From Nocardioides sp. HDW12B (lineage in GTDB: Bacteria; Actinomycetota; Actinomycetes; Propionibacteriales; Nocardioidaceae): a stretch of 64,000 bases of DNA. The DNA lies in NCBI RefSeq assembly GCF_011299595.1, contig NZ_CP049867.1, forward strand, positions 2,852,001-2,916,000, written 5' to 3'. Shown piece after piece: positions 22,526 through 49,992 of the stretch (positions within the stretch are counted from its first letter, which is position 1; each line of letters opens with the position of its first letter). Below the pieces are notes generated by a model. It ran no database searches. It saw only the letters and a program-made list of their open reading frames with translations, and was not told the DNA's origin. The translations under genes and the position numbers were made by a program.

Positions 22526-25147
22526 ATGCCGACCCGCCTGAAGCTCCCGTCGGGCGGTGCCGGCGGTGACGGTGCGGTCGACGCCGACCGGCTCTACGAC
22601 CTCTTCACCACCTGGGTCACCGAGCAGGGTCTCGAGCTCTACGAGCACCAGGACGAGGCGCTCATCGAGCTGCTGAGCGGCGCCAACGTCATCCTGGCCA
22701 CGCCGACCGGCTCGGGGAAGTCGCTGGTCGCCACCGCGGCGCACTTCGCCGCGATCGCCACCGACCGCGTGACGTTCTACACCGCGCCCATCAAGGCGCT
22801 GGTGAGCGAGAAGTTCTTCGCCCTGTGCGACGTCTTCGGCGCCGAGAACGTCGGCATGCTCACCGGTGACGCCTCGGTGAACCCCGACGCCCCGGTCATC
22901 TGCTGCACCGCCGAGATCCTCGCCCACCTGGCGCTGCGCGAGGGCCCGGACGCCGACGTCGGCCTCGTCGTCATGGACGAGTTCCACTACTACTCCGAGC
23001 CCGACCGCGGCTGGGCCTGGCAGGTCCCGCTACTGGAGCTGCCGCAGGCGCAGTTCCTGCTCATGTCGGCGACCCTCGGGCCCGTCGACCGGTTCGTCGA
23101 GGACCTGACCGCGCGGACCGGACGGCCGACCTCGGTGGTCGACGACGCCGAGCGCCCGGTGCCGCTGAGCTTCACCTGGGCCGTCACCCCGCTCGACGAG
23201 ACCGTCGAGGAGCTCGTCGCCACGCGCCAGGTGCCGGCGTACGTCGTGCACTTCACGCAGGCCAACGCCGTGGAGCACTCGACGAACCTCAAGGCCGGTC
23301 TGCGCAGCCCGCGGGGCACCGTGCTGGTGGACGCGGCGGAGAAGGAGCGGATCGCCGAGGTGATCGGCGACTTCCGCTTCGGCGCCGGCTTCGGGCGGAC
23401 GCTCTCGACCCTGGTGCGCAACGGCATCGGCGTCCACCACGCCGGCATGCTGCCGCGCTACCGGCGGCTCGTCGAGCAGCTGGCCCAGCAAGGGCTGCTC
23501 AAGGTCATCTGCGGCACCGACACCCTCGGCGTCGGGATCAACGTGCCGATCCGGACGGTGCTCTTCACCGCGCTGGCGAAGTTCGACGGCAACCGGCAGC
23601 GGATCCTGCGGACCCGCGAGTTCCTCCAGATCGCGGGCCGTGCCGGGCGGGCCGGCTACGACACCGTCGGCTACGTGGTGGTGCAGGCGCCGGAGCACGT
23701 GATCGAGAACGAGCGCCTCGTCCGCAAGGCCGGCGACGACCCGAAGAAGCTCAAGCGCATCCAGCGCAAGAAGCCCCCCGAGGGCCAGGTGGTGTGGACC
23801 GAGCAGACCTACGACAAGCTCGTGGCCGGGGTCCCGGAGCCGCTCGTGTCGCGGATGCGCGTCGACAACGCGATGCTCATCCACGTCGCCGCCCGGGAGT
23901 CCGACGGCGTCGAGGTGATGCGGCGGCTGCTGCGCGACAACCACGAGGACCCGCGCAACCAGCTGCGGCTCGTGCGGCGTGCGCTGCGGCTGGCGCGCTC
24001 ACTCGTGCGCTCGGGCATCCTCACGCGGCTCGACGAGGTCGACGAGCTCGGGCGCCGCTACGTGCTGACGGTGGACCTGCCTCCCGACTTCGCCCTCAAC
24101 CAGCCGCTGGCGCACTTCGCCCTCGCCGCATTGGACGTGCTCGACCCGGAGGCGGAGACCTACCCGCTCGACGTCATCTCCGTGATCGAGGCGGTCTTGG
24201 AGTCACCACGACAAATAATCTTCGCCCAGCAGCACGTCGCACGTGGCGAGGCCATCGGGCAGATGAAGGCCGACGGGCTGGAGTACGACGAGCGCATGGC
24301 CCTGCTCGACGAGGTGACGTGGCCGAAGCCGCTCGAGGAGCTCCTCGGGGCGACGTACGAGATCTATCGGCAGAGCCACCCCTGGCTGCCCGAGGACGGG
24401 CTGGAGCCCAAGTCCGTGGTCCGGGAGATGTGGGAGCGGGCGATGAGCTTCACCGACCTCGTCTCGCGCTACCAGCTCGCCCGGTCCGAGGGGCTGGTGC
24501 TTCGCTACCTCACCGACGCCTACCGGACGCTGCGCCAGACGGTGCCTGACGCCCACCGCTCGCCCGAGCTCGAGGAGATCATCGAGTGGCTGGGCGAGAC
24601 CGTCCGCCAGACCGACTCCTCGCTGCTCGACGAGTGGGAGGCGCTGACCGACCCCGAGCACCACGAGCTGCACGGGGTCGGCCCCGGCGCCGCACCCCCG
24701 CCGCCCCGCGCGCTGTCGCAGCAGGAGCGGCCGCTGCGCGTCATGGTGCGCAACGCCGTCTTCCGCCGGGTCGAGCTGGTCGCGCGCGACGACGTACCGG
24801 CGCTGGCCGCGCTGGAGCGCACCGCCGCCGGACGCGCCGACCCGCCGCTCGAGCCGCTGATGGACTCCGACGCCTGGGACGCCGCCCTCGAGACGTACTT
24901 CGACGAGCACGACCGTGTCGGCACCGGACCCGACGCCCGCGGCCCCGAGCTCTTCGTCGTCGACACCCACCCGCCCACCGACCCCGACGCCCCCGACGCC
25001 TTCCCGCGCCGCACGTGGCGGGTGCGCCAGACCCTCGACGACCCCGCGGGCCACCGCGACTGGGTCATCGACGCGCTCGTCGACCTCGACGCCACCGACG
25101 AGGCCGGCGAGGCCGTCGTCCTCGCCACCGCCTTCCACCGCCTCTGA
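22526..25147 (+). CDS. SKI2-like DEAD/DEAH-box RNA helicase with DUF3516
   Basis: An 873-residue superfamily 2 helicase. Motif I is ATPTGSGKS (about residue 64), motif Ia TAPIKALVSEKF, motif II DEFH in VVMDEFHYYSEPDRG, motif III LLMSATLG, and motif VI QIAGRAGRAG. VHHAGMLPRYR and CGTDTLGVGINVPIRTV are Ski2/Mtr4 features. The C-terminal 400 residues contain the actinobacterial DUF3516 region. It is expected to unwind RNA in turnover or ribosome quality control. Note that motif II is DEFH rather than DEVH. It starts 34 bases after the oxidoreductase stop. Confidence 0.93.
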   Translation: MPTRLKLPSGGAGGDGAVDADRLYDLFTTWVTEQGLELYEHQDEALIELLSGANVILATPTGSGKSLVATAAHFAAIATDRVTFYTAPIKALVSEKFFALCDVFGAENVGMLTGDASVNPDAPVICCTAEILAHLALREGPDADVGLVVMDEFHYYSEPDRGWAWQVPLLELPQAQFLLMSATLGPVDRFVEDLTARTGRPTSVVDDAERPVPLSFTWAVTPLDETVEELVATRQVPAYVVHFTQANAVEHSTNLKAGLRSPRGTVLVDAAEKERIAEVIGDFRFGAGFGRTLSTLVRNGIGVHHAGMLPRYRRLVEQLAQQGLLKVICGTDTLGVGINVPIRTVLFTALAKFDGNRQRILRTREFLQIAGRAGRAGYDTVGYVVVQAPEHVIENERLVRKAGDDPKKLKRIQRKKPPEGQVVWTEQTYDKLVAGVPEPLVSRMRVDNAMLIHVAARESDGVEVMRRLLRDNHEDPRNQLRLVRRALRLARSLVRSGILTRLDEVDELGRRYVLTVDLPPDFALNQPLAHFALAALDVLDPEAETYPLDVISVIEAVLESPRQIIFAQQHVARGEAIGQMKADGLEYDERMALLDEVTWPKPLEELLGATYEIYRQSHPWLPEDGLEPKSVVREMWERAMSFTDLVSRYQLARSEGLVLRYLTDAYRTLRQTVPDAHRSPELEEIIEWLGETVRQTDSSLLDEWEALTDPEHHELHGVGPGAAPPPPRALSQQERPLRVMVRNAVFRRVELVARDDVPALAALERTAAGRADPPLEPLMDSDAWDAALETYFDEHDRVGTGPDARGPELFVVDTHPPTDPDAPDAFPRRTWRVRQTLDDPAGHRDWVIDALVDLDATDEAGEAVVLATAFHRL

Positions 25148-25151
25148 CCCC

Positions 25152-25237
25152 CGCGAAACGTCTCACGCACACGCGAAACGTCACGTGTGCACGCGCGAAA
25201 CGTCACTCGTGCTCGCGCGAGACGTCACTTCTGCCCG
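25152..25237 (+). repeat. Left array of 22-bp repeats
   Basis: Four units begin 4 bases after the helicase stop: one of 20 bases (25152-25171) and three of exactly 22 (25172-25193, 25194-25215, 25216-25237). The unit consensus is CGCGAAACGTCACTCGTGCNCG. The array is the inverted counterpart of the one at 25926-26079 and starts within the same GACCCCCGCGARACG sequence. Confidence 0.88.
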
Positions 25238-25377
25238 ACGTACCGCGGTCCAAGGTCCCGTATCAGGCTCCGGCGGGCGTACGACGTACGCGCAACCGTC
25301 GAGCGCGCTCCTCCCCGACCGAGCCGGTCCGCGGCTCGACCGAACCGGCGGGACACCGCCGCCCCCAGGAGGACACC

Positions 25378-25869
25378 ATGACCACGCTCACCCCCCGCCG
25401 CCGCACCGCTGCCGCCCTCGGCCTCACCGCCCTGGTGACCGCCGGTATCACCACCACCCTCTCGGGCAGTGCCGAGGCCGTCCCGACCGTCCAGCGCAGC
25501 TGTGCCACCAACGTCGTCTCGACCCTGGCGCAGAACGGCTGGACCTCGATGGGCCTGACCGCGACCGTGAAGAACGGCACCGCGCCGCGCCAGGTGATCG
25601 CGCAGCTGTCCTCCGACGCCGGCGTCGCCCCGAACGCCGAGATCCGGGTGGGGTACTCCGTCGACGGCGGCCCGGTCCGCGAGGGCGTCTACGGTCCCGC
25701 GAACTTCGCCAACCACACGGACTTCTGGGAGACCCGGACCACGATGGCGGTGCTCCCGCTCGGCGCCGGCACCCACACGGTCCAGGCCTTCTGGCGCATC
25801 AGCGGCGCGACCGGCACCAACGGGGTGCTCAACGTCCGCTGCTTCACCCTCGAGAGCCGTACAAGCTGA
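25378..25869 (+). CDS. Small secreted protein of unknown function
   Basis: A 163-residue exported protein. The signal peptide has a TPRRR n-region, a hydrophobic AAALGLTALVTAGITTTL core and a likely cleavage after SGSAEA. The mature part of about 128 residues is beta-rich, with two cysteines (SCATNVV near the mature N-terminus and VRCFTLE at the C-terminus) that could form a disulfide. Segments such as IRVGYSVDGGPVREGVYG look like an immunoglobulin- or jelly-roll-like fold, but I cannot name a family. A perfect AGGAGG lies 6 bases before the ATG. It is bracketed by the two inverted 22-bp repeat arrays. Confidence 0.8.
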   Translation: MTTLTPRRRTAAALGLTALVTAGITTTLSGSAEAVPTVQRSCATNVVSTLAQNGWTSMGLTATVKNGTAPRQVIAQLSSDAGVAPNAEIRVGYSVDGGPVREGVYGPANFANHTDFWETRTTMAVLPLGAGTHTVQAFWRISGATGTNGVLNVRCFTLESRTS

Positions 25870-25925
25870 TCTCAGCACCCCGGCGAGTGCAACCGGCGCC
25901 TCGCCCGTGCGCGACCGACGCCGCG

Positions 25926-26079
25926 CGCGTGCACGAGTGACGTTTCGCGCGTGCACGAGTGACGTTTCGCGCGTGCACGAGTGACGCTTCGCGCGTGCAC
26001 GACCGACGTCTCGCGCGTGCACGAGTGACGTCTCGCGCGTGCACAACCGACGTCTCGCGCCTGCAGAAAGGGCGTCTCG
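25926..26079 (-). repeat. Right array of 22-bp repeats, inverted relative to the left array
   Basis: Seven consecutive units of exactly 22 bases, starting at 25926, 25948, 25970, 25992, 26014, 26036 and 26058. The first two are identical (CGCGTGCACGAGTGACGTTTCG) and later ones drift to CGACGTCTCG ends. Read on the minus strand the array starts GACCCCCGCGAGACG, 19-33 bases past the azlD stop. Each unit contains the 8-bp palindrome CGTGCACG or a near copy. Confidence 0.92.
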
Positions 26080-26108
26080 CGGGGGTCGGAACGGTCGGAA
26101 CGGCGGGG

Positions 26109-26435
26109 TCAGGTGAGGGCGCGCAGCAGCGCCGTCACGGTGACCGCGACGGCCACCGCGAGGACGAGGGAACGCCCTCGCCAGAGGAGGACTCCGGCGA
26201 GGGCGACGCCCACGGTGTGGGCGCCCACCGACCAGCGCTGGCCGTCGGCGAAGGTCGAGGTCACCACAAGTGCCGCCAGCAGGGCGGCCGCCATCAGCGC
26301 GATGACCCGGCCGAACCAGGCCGGCAGGTCCCGACCTCCGAGCGCGACCGGGCCGGCGGCCTTGATGACGGCCGTCACGACCACGAGACCGAGGATCAGC
26401 CACCAGAGGGCGGCGCCCTGCACCGGCGGGCTCAT
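26109..26435 (-). CDS. azlD: AzlD family branched-chain amino acid exporter subunit
   Basis: A 108-residue membrane protein with three to four hydrophobic helices, matching AzlD in size. LWWLILGLVVVTAVIKAAGPVAL and ADGQRWSVGAHTVGVALAGVLL are typical segments. AzlCD pairs export branched-chain amino acids or related molecules. Its ATG overlaps the azlC stop by four bases (ATGA). Confidence 0.88.
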   Translation of the reverse strand: MSPPVQGAALWWLILGLVVVTAVIKAAGPVALGGRDLPAWFGRVIALMAAALLAALVVTSTFADGQRWSVGAHTVGVALAGVLLWRGRSLVLAVAVAVTVTALLRALT

Positions 26436-27163
26436 CGGGCCTCCCCGTAGCGGGTCAGCCCGAGCAGCGCGGCGGCCGCCGCGGCGAGGATCGGCACGCC
26501 CGGTGGCGTGAGGGGCACCAGCGCCAGCGCGATGACCGCGCCCAGCAGCGCCACCACCCGCGACCGCGCGTCGCGCAGCTCCGCGATCACGAGCCCGAGG
26601 AAGAACGTGGGGTAGACCGCGTCGAGACCGAAGCGCTCGACGTCCCCCAGCTGGTCACCGGCGAAGGCCCCGGTCGTCGTGCCGAGCACCCAGGTGAGGT
26701 ACTGCGGGGCGGTCGCCCCGAACAGCAGCCACCGGTCGAACGAGCCGTCGCGCCGGTTCGCCATGGCCCACGAGCTGTCGACGACCGCCTGGCCCTGTGC
26801 CGCGCGCGCCGGGGCCGAGCCGGGCAGCGACGGCGCCAGCGCGATCCCCATCGCGAGGAAGCGCGCGTTCATCAGCCCCGCGGCCGACACCGCGGCCCCG
26901 ACCCCGCCCCCGGCGACCACGATCGACAGCGCGGCGAACTGGGCGGACCCGGCGAAGACCAGCGCCGAGGTCGCCACCGCCTGCAGCGCGGAGAAGCCGG
27001 CCTGGCGCGCGAGCACGCCGAAGCTCAGCGACAGCACGAACCCCACGGCGGCGAAGGGCAGACCGCGGCGCACCCCGTCGCGGAAGGACTCCGCCCGCGT
27101 GAGGCCCGGCCCGGTCTCCCCGGGCGGCCCGTCCTCGTCGTCGCGGTCGGGTCCATCGGGCAC
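26432..27163 (-). CDS. azlC: AzlC family branched-chain amino acid exporter subunit
   Basis: A 243-residue membrane protein of the AzlC/YgaZ family. Characteristic segments are GLPFAAVGFVLSLSFGVLARQAGF, SALVFAGSAQFAALSI and MNARFLAMGIALAPSLPG, with a FDLDAVYPTFFLGLV-like stretch late. It is the large subunit and pairs with the overlapping azlD. The GTG at 27163 leaves a 28-residue hydrophilic N-terminal tail rich in Asp and Gly; other downstream starts are possible. Confidence 0.85.
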   Translation of the reverse strand: MPDGPDRDDEDGPPGETGPGLTRAESFRDGVRRGLPFAAVGFVLSLSFGVLARQAGFSALQAVATSALVFAGSAQFAALSIVVAGGGVGAAVSAAGLMNARFLAMGIALAPSLPGSAPARAAQGQAVVDSSWAMANRRDGSFDRWLLFGATAPQYLTWVLGTTTGAFAGDQLGDVERFGLDAVYPTFFLGLVIAELRDARSRVVALLGAVIALALVPLTPPGVPILAAAAAALLGLTRYGEAR

Positions 27164-27414: not shown

Positions 27415-28041
27415 ATGCGCACATCGTTGCTGGTCGGACTGAGCCTTGCCCTGACCGCCGCCGTGGCGGTCGTCGTGAGCTCGTTGTTCGACCTCCAGAT
27501 CGAGTCGGTGGCCCTGCTGGGCGCTGCGACGGGCGCCGTGCTGGCCCTCGTCCCCGACACCACCCCCCTGGCCCGCATGGGCGGTGCGCTCCTCGGCGTG
27601 CTGGCCTCGCTGGTCGGCTTCGCGCTCCGCGCCGCCGAGCTGCCCGACACCGCCGGCGGCCGTGCCGTCGCCGTCGTGGTGGTCATCCTGCTCTGCACCG
27701 TCGTCGCGGTCGTCAGCCGTCAGCGCATCGCGCTGTGGGCCCCGCTCCTGGGTGCGGCGGCCTTCGCCGGCGCCTACGAGCGGGTGTACGCCGTCGCGCC
27801 GGCCGAGCTGCCCGACACCGCCCTCACCACCGTCACCGCCCTGCTCATGGCGCTGGCCGTCGGATTCCTCGCCACCAGCTGGGCCGCCCCGCGTACCGAG
27901 CGCGGCACCCGCACCCCGACCACCGACCCGCGCCCGCCGGCGCGCCCCGGTGACGAGCACACCGAGCCCACCACCGACCTGGAGACCCTGCTGAACCGCG
28001 AAGCGGCCGGCACCGACGCCCGTATGGAGAACGCCCGATGA
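27415..28041 (+). CDS. Integral membrane protein coupled to the LxxG-repeat protein
   Basis: A 208-residue protein with about five hydrophobic helices in residues 1-158 and a hydrophilic, Pro/Thr/Asp-rich C-terminal tail of about 50 residues. I recognise no named family. GAATGAVLALVPDTTPLARMG and VSRQRIALWAPLLGAAAF connect helices. The ATG follows GAAGGGAGCGCGCCAGC. The stop overlaps the next ATG (ATGA), so it is made together with the 905-residue surface protein and may be its membrane partner or exporter (inference). Confidence 0.75.
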   Translation: MRTSLLVGLSLALTAAVAVVVSSLFDLQIESVALLGAATGAVLALVPDTTPLARMGGALLGVLASLVGFALRAAELPDTAGGRAVAVVVVILLCTVVAVVSRQRIALWAPLLGAAAFAGAYERVYAVAPAELPDTALTTVTALLMALAVGFLATSWAAPRTERGTRTPTTDPRPPARPGDEHTEPTTDLETLLNREAAGTDARMENAR

Positions 28042-30755
28042 GCCCCCGCCCCGTCTTCTTCCGTGCCGCCGCCGTTGCCGGCGCCGGCGCGCTCGGCCTC
28101 ATGGCCGTCGGCGGCCCCGCGGCCGCCGCGACCGGTGACGACCTCACCGTCGTCAACACCGAGACCGTCCAGGCCTACACCGACGCCACCGGCGAGGTGG
28201 AGGAGAGCCGCCTCTACGAGCAGCTCCACCTGACCGGCGAGGGCTCGACCAGCCTGGAGAACCCGGCCGTCGTCGAGGGCCTGCGCAACCTCGAGGGCTT
28301 CAGCGGCTTCGACACCGAGGACGGCGAGCAGTACCTCGAGCTCGACGTCGACGGCACCGAGGACGTCCGCACCGTCACCGACTACGAGGAGGACCTCCCC
28401 CTCGACATCTCGGTGACCTACACCCTCGACGGCAAGCGCGTCGAGCCGGCCGACCTCGTCGGCTCCACCGGCGACCTCGAGGTCGAGTACACCGTGGAGA
28501 ACGTCACCGAGCGCGTCCAGACCGTCTCGTTCGACGACGGCAAGGGCGGCACGACGACCGAGGACGTCCCGGTCTCCCTGCCCATGGTCGGCAGCCTCAC
28601 CACGGTCCTGCCGCCGTCCTTCCGCAAGGTCACCTCGGGCCAGGCCAACATGGCCGGCGACGGTCGTGGCAACATCAAGATGAGCTTCACGATGACGCTC
28701 GTGCCGCCGGTCGGCTCCGACACCGCTGTCTTCGGCTACACCGCCGAGATCCGCGACGCCGTCCTGCCGCGTGCCAGCGTCACCGCGCTGCCGGTGAACC
28801 CCATGGAGAGCCCCACCTTCAAGAGCGCGGGCGACTCGTACGCCGCCGGCGCCGCGACGGGTGCCGAACTCACCGACGGCGCCACGCAGATCGACTCGAA
28901 CCTGCTGCTGCTCCGTGACGGCGCCGGCAACCTGCTCGCCGGCCTCATCAAGCTGCGCGACGGCTCCGCCGAGCTGCAGGACGGCCTGCAGGGCAAGGCC
29001 GCCCCCGGTGCCGAGAAGCTCGCCGCCGGTGCTGACACCCTCCGCGCCGGGCTGCAGGACAAGGCCTACCCGGGCAGCCAGGAGCTGTTCGCGGGTGCCG
29101 ACCTGCTCCGTGCCGGTCTCCAGGACCGCGCGGTCCCCGGCTCGGAGAAGATCGCCGACGGCACCGCCGAGCTCGCCGGTGGCCTGACCGGCACCGCCGT
29201 CCCCGGTGCCAACAAGCTGGCTGACGGCTCTGCCGAGCTCGCCGACGGTCTCGGCCGCCTCGACGCCGGCGCCGGCAAGCTCGCCGGCGGCGCCGGCCAG
29301 GTCGCCGACGGTGCGACCTCGGCCGCGGCCGGTGGCGCCAAGCTGACCACCGGTCTGTCGCAGATCAGCGCCGGTCTCGGCCAGCTCGCCGCGGTCGACG
29401 GTCTCCCCGCCGCCGCGGTCGGCATCGACAAGCTGCAGGCGGGTGTCGACCTCGTGAACGCCGGGCTCGGCTCGGTGGAGAGCCCGACCAGCCTCATCGG
29501 CGGTCTCGCCCGGCTCGAGGGTGGCCTCTCCGCGCTCGTGACCGGTCAGGGCAACCTGGTCGCCGGTCTCGAGCAGTCCGCGACCAAGCTCCCCGCCGCG
29601 AAGGGCGGTGTCGACCAGGCCAAGGGTGCGGTCAACGGCGCCAGCGGCGCCATCGGTGGCGCCGTGGGCGACATCAACGCCGCTCGCGGCGTGCAGGAGT
29701 GCGCGGACGTCCCCGCGTGCGTCGACAACCTCGACGCCGCGCTCACCAAGCTGGGCAACGCCCAGGGTCTGCTCGGTGCCGCCGACGGTGCGCTCGGTGC
29801 GGTCTCCACCGGCCTCGGCGAGGCGCTCACCGGCCTGAACAGCCAGCTGCTGCCGGGTGCCCGTCAGATCGAGACCGGCCTGACCGACGCCAGGAACGGT
29901 GCGACCAGCGCCAAGAACGGCGCCCTGCAGATCAAGGGTGGCGTGGTCCAGGTCTCCGACGGCCTGGCTGCCCTGGAGATCGGAGTCACCAAGGCCGTCT
30001 CCGGCATCTCGGCCCTGTCCGCCGGCGCCAGCGACGCCTACACCGGCTCGCAGACCCTCAGCACCGGCCTGAACGCGCTCGGCGCCGGGGCCACCCAGGT
30101 CGCCGACGGTGCGGGCGAGCTCGCCCAGGGCGCGGGCGAGGCCAAGAGCGGCGCCAGCCGCATCGCGGCCGGCAACGCCACGCTGGCCGAGGGCCTGCTG
30201 ACCGCCTCGGTCGGCTCCGAGAAGCTCGCCGCCGGCACCCGCGAGCTGGCCGACAAGCTCGTCGAGGCCGCTGACGGCTCCGGCAAGCTGACCGACGGCG
30301 CCGAGAAGCTCTCCGACGGCCTCGGCGACGCCGCCGAGGGCTCCGGCAAGCTGGCCGACGGCGCCGGGGTGCTCTCCGACGGCCTGCAGGACGCCGCCGA
30401 GGGCTCCGGCAAGCTGACCGAGGGTCTCGGCACCGCCGCCGAGGGTGCGCCCAAGCTCGTCGACGGCGCCCAGCGCCTCTCCGACGAGGGCACCTCCAAG
30501 CTGGTCGAGGCCGGCGAGGACACCGCCGCGAAGTACGGCGTCATGTACGCCACGCTCGAGGCGGGCGCCGAGCGCGCGAAGGACGAGCGGATGATCGTCG
30601 GGGCCCCCGACGGTGCCGTCGGCCTGGCGGCGTACACCTTCGAGATCAAGGGCGAGGACGGCGAGGGCGGCCGCAACCTCACCCGCGGACTGGCGGCCCT
30701 CGGGCTGCTCTCCGCGGCCGGCGGGACGCTGTTCCTCCGCCGTCGCCTGGTCTGA
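28038..30755 (+). CDS. Surface-anchored LxxG heptad-repeat protein (YhgE/Pip-like repeats)
   Basis: A 905-residue protein. A signal peptide (residues 1-31, ending in a run of alanines) is followed by a non-repetitive beta-rich domain of about 240 residues. From about residue 280 to 830 it is built of heptad-like repeats of the form L-A-x-G-A-x-x-L-x-x-G (for example KLADGSAELADGLGRL), like the X-x-x-Leu-x-x-Gly repeats of YhgE/Pip proteins. The repeats are interrupted near residue 555 by a CADVPAC segment holding the two cysteines I can find. A C-terminal hydrophobic helix followed by RRR anchors it. Expected topology: long extracellular rod tethered at its C-terminus. Function unknown. Confidence 0.8.
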   Translation: MSPRPVFFRAAAVAGAGALGLMAVGGPAAAATGDDLTVVNTETVQAYTDATGEVEESRLYEQLHLTGEGSTSLENPAVVEGLRNLEGFSGFDTEDGEQYLELDVDGTEDVRTVTDYEEDLPLDISVTYTLDGKRVEPADLVGSTGDLEVEYTVENVTERVQTVSFDDGKGGTTTEDVPVSLPMVGSLTTVLPPSFRKVTSGQANMAGDGRGNIKMSFTMTLVPPVGSDTAVFGYTAEIRDAVLPRASVTALPVNPMESPTFKSAGDSYAAGAATGAELTDGATQIDSNLLLLRDGAGNLLAGLIKLRDGSAELQDGLQGKAAPGAEKLAAGADTLRAGLQDKAYPGSQELFAGADLLRAGLQDRAVPGSEKIADGTAELAGGLTGTAVPGANKLADGSAELADGLGRLDAGAGKLAGGAGQVADGATSAAAGGAKLTTGLSQISAGLGQLAAVDGLPAAAVGIDKLQAGVDLVNAGLGSVESPTSLIGGLARLEGGLSALVTGQGNLVAGLEQSATKLPAAKGGVDQAKGAVNGASGAIGGAVGDINAARGVQECADVPACVDNLDAALTKLGNAQGLLGAADGALGAVSTGLGEALTGLNSQLLPGARQIETGLTDARNGATSAKNGALQIKGGVVQVSDGLAALEIGVTKAVSGISALSAGASDAYTGSQTLSTGLNALGAGATQVADGAGELAQGAGEAKSGASRIAAGNATLAEGLLTASVGSEKLAAGTRELADKLVEAADGSGKLTDGAEKLSDGLGDAAEGSGKLADGAGVLSDGLQDAAEGSGKLTEGLGTAAEGAPKLVDGAQRLSDEGTSKLVEAGEDTAAKYGVMYATLEAGAERAKDERMIVGAPDGAVGLAAYTFEIKGEDGEGGRNLTRGLAALGLLSAAGGTLFLRRRLV

Positions 30756-49831: not shown

Positions 49832-49892
49832 CAGTCAACTCCGCGTGGTGCCGGGCGCGGAGAGGAGGAAGTCACCGCCGCAATGGTCCTTC

Positions 49893-49956
49893 GTCGTCGC
49901 GTCGTCGCGTCGTCGCGTCGTCGCGTCGTCGCGTCGTCGCGTCGTCGCGTCGTCGC
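49893..49956. repeat. Octamer tandem repeat, eight copies
   Basis: Eight perfect copies of GTCGTCGC followed by a partial ninth. It lies in the non-coding gap between the PNPOx-like gene (starting at 49778 on the minus strand) and the DksA/TraR gene, about 115 bases upstream of the former. Confidence 0.93.
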
Positions 49957-49992
49957 GTCGTCCGAGGGGACGTCGTGGCGGCGGCGTCGTGC

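Follow-up and report, generated by a model that had tools for sequence, protein, structure and literature searches.

Results

Two inverted repeat arrays lie behind a helicase gene and azlD

We analysed a stretch of 64,000 nucleotides (the window), positions 2852001-2916000 of the 4.19-Mb single-contig chromosome of Nocardioides sp. HDW12B (labelled G000 where it stands beside relatives). In window coordinates, the locus is composed as follows.

22526..25147, plus strand: DUF3516/DEAD-box helicase gene, with the left array at its 3′ end
25148..25151, plus strand: C-rich lead CCCC, from the helicase stop codon (25145-25147) to the left array
25152..25237, plus strand: left array of four units in head-to-tail order, with the CGA end facing the helicase gene
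25378..25869, plus strand: gene for a small protein of 163 aa with a start that looks like a signal peptide (by eye), between the arrays
25884..25927, minus strand: the right array's two distal, degenerate units, which keep the register (starts 25906 and 25884; scores 17 and 20 of 22)
25928..26081, minus strand: right array of seven units spaced at exactly 22 bp, with the CGA end facing azlD
26082..26108, minus strand: C-rich, G-poorer lead of 27 nt, from the azlD stop to the right array
26109..26435, minus strand: azlD gene, with the right array at its 3′ end
26432..27163, minus strand: AzlC gene

An earlier sequence-only reading of the window had described two oppositely oriented arrays of 22-bp repeats, at 25152-25237 and about 25926-26079, together with a helicase gene on the plus strand, a secreted-type protein and azlD on the minus strand. 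Both arrays are present, and the neighbouring genes are as described. The left array consists of four units, the number originally given, starting at 25152, 25172, 25194 and 25216 with steps of 20, 22 and 22 bp. The right array had been counted as seven units. It contains six units with at most three mismatches (starts 25928, 25950, 25972, 25994, 26016 and 26038), a weaker match at the gene-proximal end (26060-26081) and the two degenerate distal units, making nine units at exactly 22 bp over 25884-26081. With up to three mismatches, the 22-mer unit matched nine times in the window and not once in 100 dinucleotide-preserving shuffles.

The protein encoded between the arrays had no Pfam match. 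We found no intrinsic terminator (a GC-rich hairpin followed by a T-run) within 24900-26500 of the window, for which the shuffle mean was 0.2, and an Rfam search of 24900-26400 gave two matches, both far under the gathering score. Other repeats of the window include an 8-bp unit, CGTCGTCG, repeated perfectly in tandem almost nine times at 49892-49962, and 21/63-bp tandem repeats at 30212-30445, a repetitive coding region within a 905-aa ORF (28038-30755).

The units are dispersed across the chromosome and mostly begin behind stop codons

The sequence-only reading had proposed a single dispersed element directed at gene 3′ ends, with a shared boundary and an exact spacing. A search of the chromosome for the 19-mer CGCGARRCGTCRSTYGTGYACG with up to three mismatches returned 96 matches (49 + 47 by strand), compared with 3 for the reversed control (2 + 1); 48 matches were obtained with up to two mismatches. 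At two mismatches, 10 of the 57 relatives searched had between 1 and 4 isolated matches, a level close to that of the reversed control.

Our list of HDW12B arrays covers 33 stretches fetched around pattern matches and is not a full census, with candidate loci near 927 and 2119 kb lying outside it; it holds 43 intergenic arrays by the placement rule and 42 by the printing rule. Two further 20-kb stretches of this chromosome served only as search queries. With genes called by a home-made codon-usage ORF caller, 36 of the 43 arrays begin no more than 110 nt past a stop codon on their own strand. Most follow a common plan: a stop codon, a C-rich lead, head-to-tail units opening with CGCGA, and a distal end that decays. 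The boundary first read from the two window arrays (stop TGA, C-run, CGCGA) recurs at most of the HDW12B arrays that were printed, and a TGA stop precedes 38 of the 39 arrays that a separate rule scored as stop-following, compared with 87 of 98 control genes. The proposal of one dispersed, 3′-end-directed element is thus supported, as the units occur far beyond this locus and in relation to gene ends.

The lead between the stop codon and the array has C and G fractions of 0.59 and 0.18 in HDW12B, 0.75 and 0.06 in G008, and 0.76 and 0.06 in G355, while control gene ends have 0.41 and 0.36 (98 in HDW12B) or 0.42 and 0.37 (39 in G008). Among other genomes of the family, the bias was strong in G141 (0.67/0.05) and G164 (0.75/0.08), moderate in G003 (0.58/0.22), and lacking in G143 (0.40/0.25), G207 (0.41/0.29) and G124 (0.41/0.27), whose leads resemble the controls. 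Rho-dependent termination uses a long stretch of C-rich, G-poor RNA. The median lead in G008 is 4 nt, which is too short for a Rho site.

A common core recurs at spacings of whole helical turns

The arrays share an 11-bp core, CGARNCGTCRC, repeated head to tail and patchily distributed across the genomes of the family. When the spacing was left free between 16 and 44 bp, 81 of 341 family genomes carried at least one pair of exact cores, many of them as single matches that are possibly due to chance, and 260 carried none. Rich genomes include G143 (214 matches), G223 (193), G207 (157), G330 (122), G281 (104), G000 (73), G003 (59) and G141 (57); the reversed core gave 0 or 1 in each of these eight.

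We tallied the period per genome by hand from the matches listed for 18 genomes. Among these matches, and for genomes with at least three places, the period is mostly 22 bp in G000 and G008, 21 bp with doubles at 42 in G141, G143 and G207, and 32 bp in G003, G031, G120, G123, G124 and G164. Also among the matches listed, G113 has mixed distances (19, 31, 41 and 42 bp) off the simple spacing rule, G169 is mixed on three matches (21, 30 and 42 bp), and G104 (29/30), G016 (27) and G190 (24) have one or two places each. Among loci fetched from 14 genomes, the distance from one core to the next was 22 bp in 358 cases, 21 bp in 120 and 32 bp in 96; no other distance from 10 to 60 bp occurs more than 21 times, and the reversed-core control never exceeds 16 at any distance. 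The loci of G008, G328, G355, G193 and G258 had been found with 22-only patterns, and the free test of spacing is therefore that of the 21- and 32-bp genomes only.

Two-turn and three-turn forms coexist in three genera among the matches listed: G000 and G003, respectively, in genus g1; G008 as opposed to G031, G120, G123 and G124 in genus g5; and G141, G143 and G207 as opposed to G164 in genus g7. This coexistence is our main reason for regarding the units as predicted sites for a protein aligned along a single face of the DNA duplex, in preference to an RNA hairpin.

Searches tied to the 22-bp form were narrower. A double pattern with up to three mismatches matched 16 of the 341 family genomes, most strongly G000 (126), G328 (16), G355 (13), G008 (5) and G193 (4), and of 394 genomes from the class, G000 and G008 alone matched a three-copy pattern. 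The family in G008 runs parallel to that of HDW12B but differs in its spacer; its unit is GCCGAGAGGTCACTCCCTGACC (by register), with 117 double matches. No arrays were seen in sister species, G001, G002 and G112 being array-free sisters of array-rich genomes. A scan of named genomes returned 21 stretches, five of them from Nocardioides and four of these five from one MAG, several of the stretches having arrays shortly past stops; short arrays were also seen in Actinotalea and Lacisediminihabitans, and the other stretches look like chance or unrelated repeats. Overall, the arrays are real and dispersed, and the class is wider than first reported.

Arrays of all three periods tend to follow gene ends and, when they share a gap, mostly point inward

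The array starts at most 110 nt beyond a stop codon of its own strand in 84 of 115 cases at period 22 (leaving 31 outside this distance), in 20 of 28 at period 21 and in 18 of 27 at period 32. This count leaves out arrays centred in called genes (four in HDW12B, six in G141, three in G143, and one each in G008, G193, G164 and G124), and period-21 repeats can themselves create open frames; G113, having no single period, stands outside it. When compared with array-free gaps of 30 nt or more from these neighbourhoods, array-bearing gaps are more often convergent at period 22 (40/76 versus 16/199, p 8e-15) and period 21 (8/14 versus 4/44, p 5e-4), with a weak enrichment at period 32 (8/21 versus 4/34, p 0.04).

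Single arrays are common. Where a gap holds two or more arrays, a plus array precedes a minus array in all 33 cases at period 22 and all four at period 32; at period 21 this order is found in six of eight gaps, the remaining two reading +-- and +-+-+-. In G008, the genes on either side are divergent at 5 of the 28 gaps with arrays, and four of these gaps hold inward pairs, suggesting that pairs can act as a unit of their own.

Folding tests give little sign of a stem within the unit

A short stem can be drawn by eye in the units of some genomes. A hairpin inside the unit (CGTCA/TGACG, or a self-pairing CGTGYACG) was not supported, as candidate pairs exceed the column-frequency expectation by at most 0.04 in G000, G008, G355 and G328 and mean folding is ordinary. 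In G008, three candidate column pairs, on few rows, have mutual information above shuffles (z 5.6-8.7). The mean sense fold z was -0.42 for 41 HDW12B arrays and -0.69 for 42 G008 arrays, no better than the antisense means of -0.61 and -1.08. Of the window arrays, the left gave z -2.9 in sense and -2.0 in antisense, and the right 0.2. Other hairpins at -20 kcal/mol were found in 5 of 19 array gaps and 14 of 36 other gaps in HDW12B, and in 0 of 13 and 4 of 12 in G008; this shortage is biased because masking the arrays leaves little sequence.

Orthologous sites differ, and arrays appear to grow locally

At one convergent gene pair, G008 carries an array pair of eleven repeat units where G117 has a 60-nt gap with a hairpin of -53.8 kcal/mol; in G112 and G119 the place is taken by a different gene, and the hairpin is missing. 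At a co-directional site at 197 kb, the G008 gap is 244 nt with an array pair, while G117 and G119 have 43 nt and G112 has 42 nt. By eye, this one inserted site showed no direct target duplication.

At the window locus, the helicase end has different neighbours in G001, G002 and G003, azlC/azlD lie elsewhere in G001, G003 and G004, and a 50%-identical homologue of the secreted protein lies elsewhere in G002. The window arrangement is therefore lineage-specific, and the gene in the middle is probably incidental. The idea of that gene as cargo of an element is not supported, since few HDW12B array pairs enclose any gene. Other repeats were seen behind the same helicase gene: in G003, of the same genus, three tandem 32-bp copies with the related core CGAGNCGTCGC, the third diverged (L278:1394-1503); and in G009, a different inverted repeat set with the core CGAGTGGCGCAAR and 21-bp steps (L225:2826-3104), possibly another family of the same class. 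Elsewhere in the HDW12B chromosome, a stretch with three array sites (L253, 4060000-4079900) has neighbours unlike those in at least some of three relatives, and arrays may sit at points of insertion or rearrangement.

Units are more alike within an array than between loci (0.80 versus 0.68 in HDW12B, 0.85 versus 0.79 in G008), so that arrays appear to grow by local duplication. The first unit is nearer to the consensus than the last (0.82 versus 0.72 in HDW12B, 0.92 versus 0.82 in G008, 0.84 versus 0.75 in G355). Plus and minus partners are about as alike as arrays of different loci (0.689 versus 0.683 in HDW12B, 0.776 versus 0.790 in G008, 0.671 versus 0.717 in G355); hence pairs do not look like copied units, nor is a long RNA hairpin of plus with minus arrays supported as the selected feature.

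An origin from phages or plasmids found no support. Searches gave 0, 3 and 6 viral stretches, and the eight inspected look mostly like coding repeats or chance, with one clustered palindromic set among them: a viral contig (L326, about 1290-1460) carries clustered palindromic GTGACGAAACGTCAC units that are iteron-like. One HDW12B array queried against a plasmid collection had no match. No RAYT (Y1) transposase (PF01797) was detected in any of 10 genomes by a search that, as a control, succeeded in 5 of 14 known genomes.

Discussion

A predicted protein-bound signal at gene ends

We tentatively favour a reading in which the arrays form a dispersed REP-like family whose units are predicted, helically phased protein sites acting as a polar transcription-end signal, and we place its chance at somewhat below even. 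A putative sequence-specific DNA-binding protein would occupy the 11-bp core of each unit, and the phased spacing (22 bp in HDW12B, 21 or 32 bp in related genomes) would align its copies on one face of the DNA. With the array just past the stop codon and its CGA side facing the gene, and with arrays of one gap pointing inward, RNA polymerase leaving a gene would meet a protein-bound array and be stopped or paused; the C-rich lead would perhaps assist in some genomes, suiting Rho. What the sequences show directly is the copy number, the core, the spacing rule, the orientation, the position at gene ends and, at one site, an array standing where a relative has a terminator-like hairpin; that a protein exists and binds there, that it stops polymerase and that Rho takes part, we infer. 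The sequence-only reading had offered three roles: a REP/BIME-like element, a phased protein-binding array and a transcription end signal. Protein binding gains most, because in other genomes this core recurs with a period of 21 or 32 bp, and an end-signal function we likewise infer. Several observations sit uneasily with the favoured reading: the four G008 gaps with inward pairs between divergent genes are places where a terminator is not expected, the replacement of a hairpin by an array is seen at one site only, and the C-rich lead is not general. A signal of this kind would also be dispensable, given that arrays stand at only dozens of gene ends per genome and that most family genomes have no core pair. 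A more specific form, in which lineages inherit, patchily, a putative protein that polymerises on phased cores and stops transcription in one direction, as a bacterial counterpart of the Sal box, with the spacing switching between two and three turns while the core is kept, seems to us unlikely on balance. BldC-like oligomer binding is only a lead.

The most serious competitor, a real possibility that we consider less probable than the favoured reading, is that the arrays are REP-like mobile or selfish repeats with no function at gene ends, spread by an enzyme or by recombination and surviving mostly where they are harmless, behind genes and between convergent ones. Their patchy distribution, the same divergent gaps in G008 and the 244-nt G008 gap at a site where three relatives have 42-43 nt all speak for it, as does a placement equal to that given for REPs in PMC3733652. 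Such repeats would leave the strict orientation relative to genes and the preserved helical phasing unexplained; moreover, the missing Y1/RAYT transposase, the lack of a visible target duplication at the inserted site and the ordinary likeness of plus and minus partners count against it. A functional gene-end signal, which we prefer, and a mobile repeat tolerated behind genes are not mutually exclusive. We consider it improbable that the transcribed array acts as an RNA element, folding or binding an RNA-binding protein in the 3′ UTR to stabilise or process the messenger. The sense orientation behind stops, the fold of the left window array, the short stems seen by eye and the three column pairs of G008 would suit it, but pairing barely above expectation, mean sense folding near that of shuffles and a rule of two or three helical turns are not what a single-stranded RNA would lead one to expect. 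It is just as improbable, in our estimate, that the arrays serve chromosome organisation or replication-fork control through a nucleoid or barrier protein, with gene ends simply being free places. Helical phasing fits this idea, and 15 of the 33 hand-listed HDW12B loci fall in the fifth of the chromosome that is no more than 430 kb from coordinate 1 (p 0.0016, tested post hoc). Against it, the arrays take the direction of the adjacent gene on either strand, and sister species do without arrays.

Comparison with known systems

Hairpins are the usual explanation for dispersed bacterial gene-end repeats, together with a RAYT transposase in many cases. In the present class neither was found; the spacing is one of whole helix turns, and the core is common across genera while the spacer and period differ. 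Core and phase together offer a simple handle for finding the protein, and a protein-on-DNA signal at gene ends is directly testable. Many transcription ends in GC-rich actinobacteria are without classic terminators, and a protein-based stop, if true, would fill this gap. In the open-access literature, with most subscription papers outside its scope, we recognised no description of a class of phased gene-end arrays.

The closest resemblance in placement is to REP/BIME elements, which, according to PMC3733652, are likewise dispersed, extragenic and of high copy number near gene 3′ ends, favour convergent and co-directional gaps and are often inverted in arrangement. The same paper reports that, in convergent gaps, most REPs lie under 20 bp from a 3′ end, and it describes CGTC-tagged REPs that, like the arrays, have no known dedicated transposase and in which a head-to-tail arrangement is negligible; the word Actinobacteria is absent from its main text (PMC3733652). 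REPs are mainly inverted dimers and seldom head to tail, whereas our arrays run head to tail over several units, with inversion only between arrays. The units also fail the palindrome stem-loop test and are locked to 21, 22 or 32 bp, with the core common across genomes while the spacer changes.

Plasmid iterons are direct repeats of about 20-22 bp, phased at two turns, that load an initiator protein and stand next to its gene and an origin. The arrays resemble them as phased direct repeats of about two turns but are chromosomal and lie behind dozens of different gene ends. The MIRUs of mycobacteria are dispersed tandem repeats near stop codons in gene orientation, as the arrays are, with units of 46-101 bp as opposed to 21, 22 or 32 bp and of another sequence. 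Tn7/Mu-type ends consist of inward-facing sets of several 22-bp transposase sites on a transposase-carrying element that makes a target duplication; inward pairs are alike in the two systems, whereas single arrays are common in ours, in a comparison for which only Y1 transposases were sought. The Sal-box/TTF-I repeats behind rRNA genes and the Ter/Tus sites are tandem or polar protein sites oriented toward the incoming polymerase or fork. Our arrays, with a putative protein, share this single orientation, but where those systems serve one locus or the terminus, the arrays stand behind many unrelated genes.
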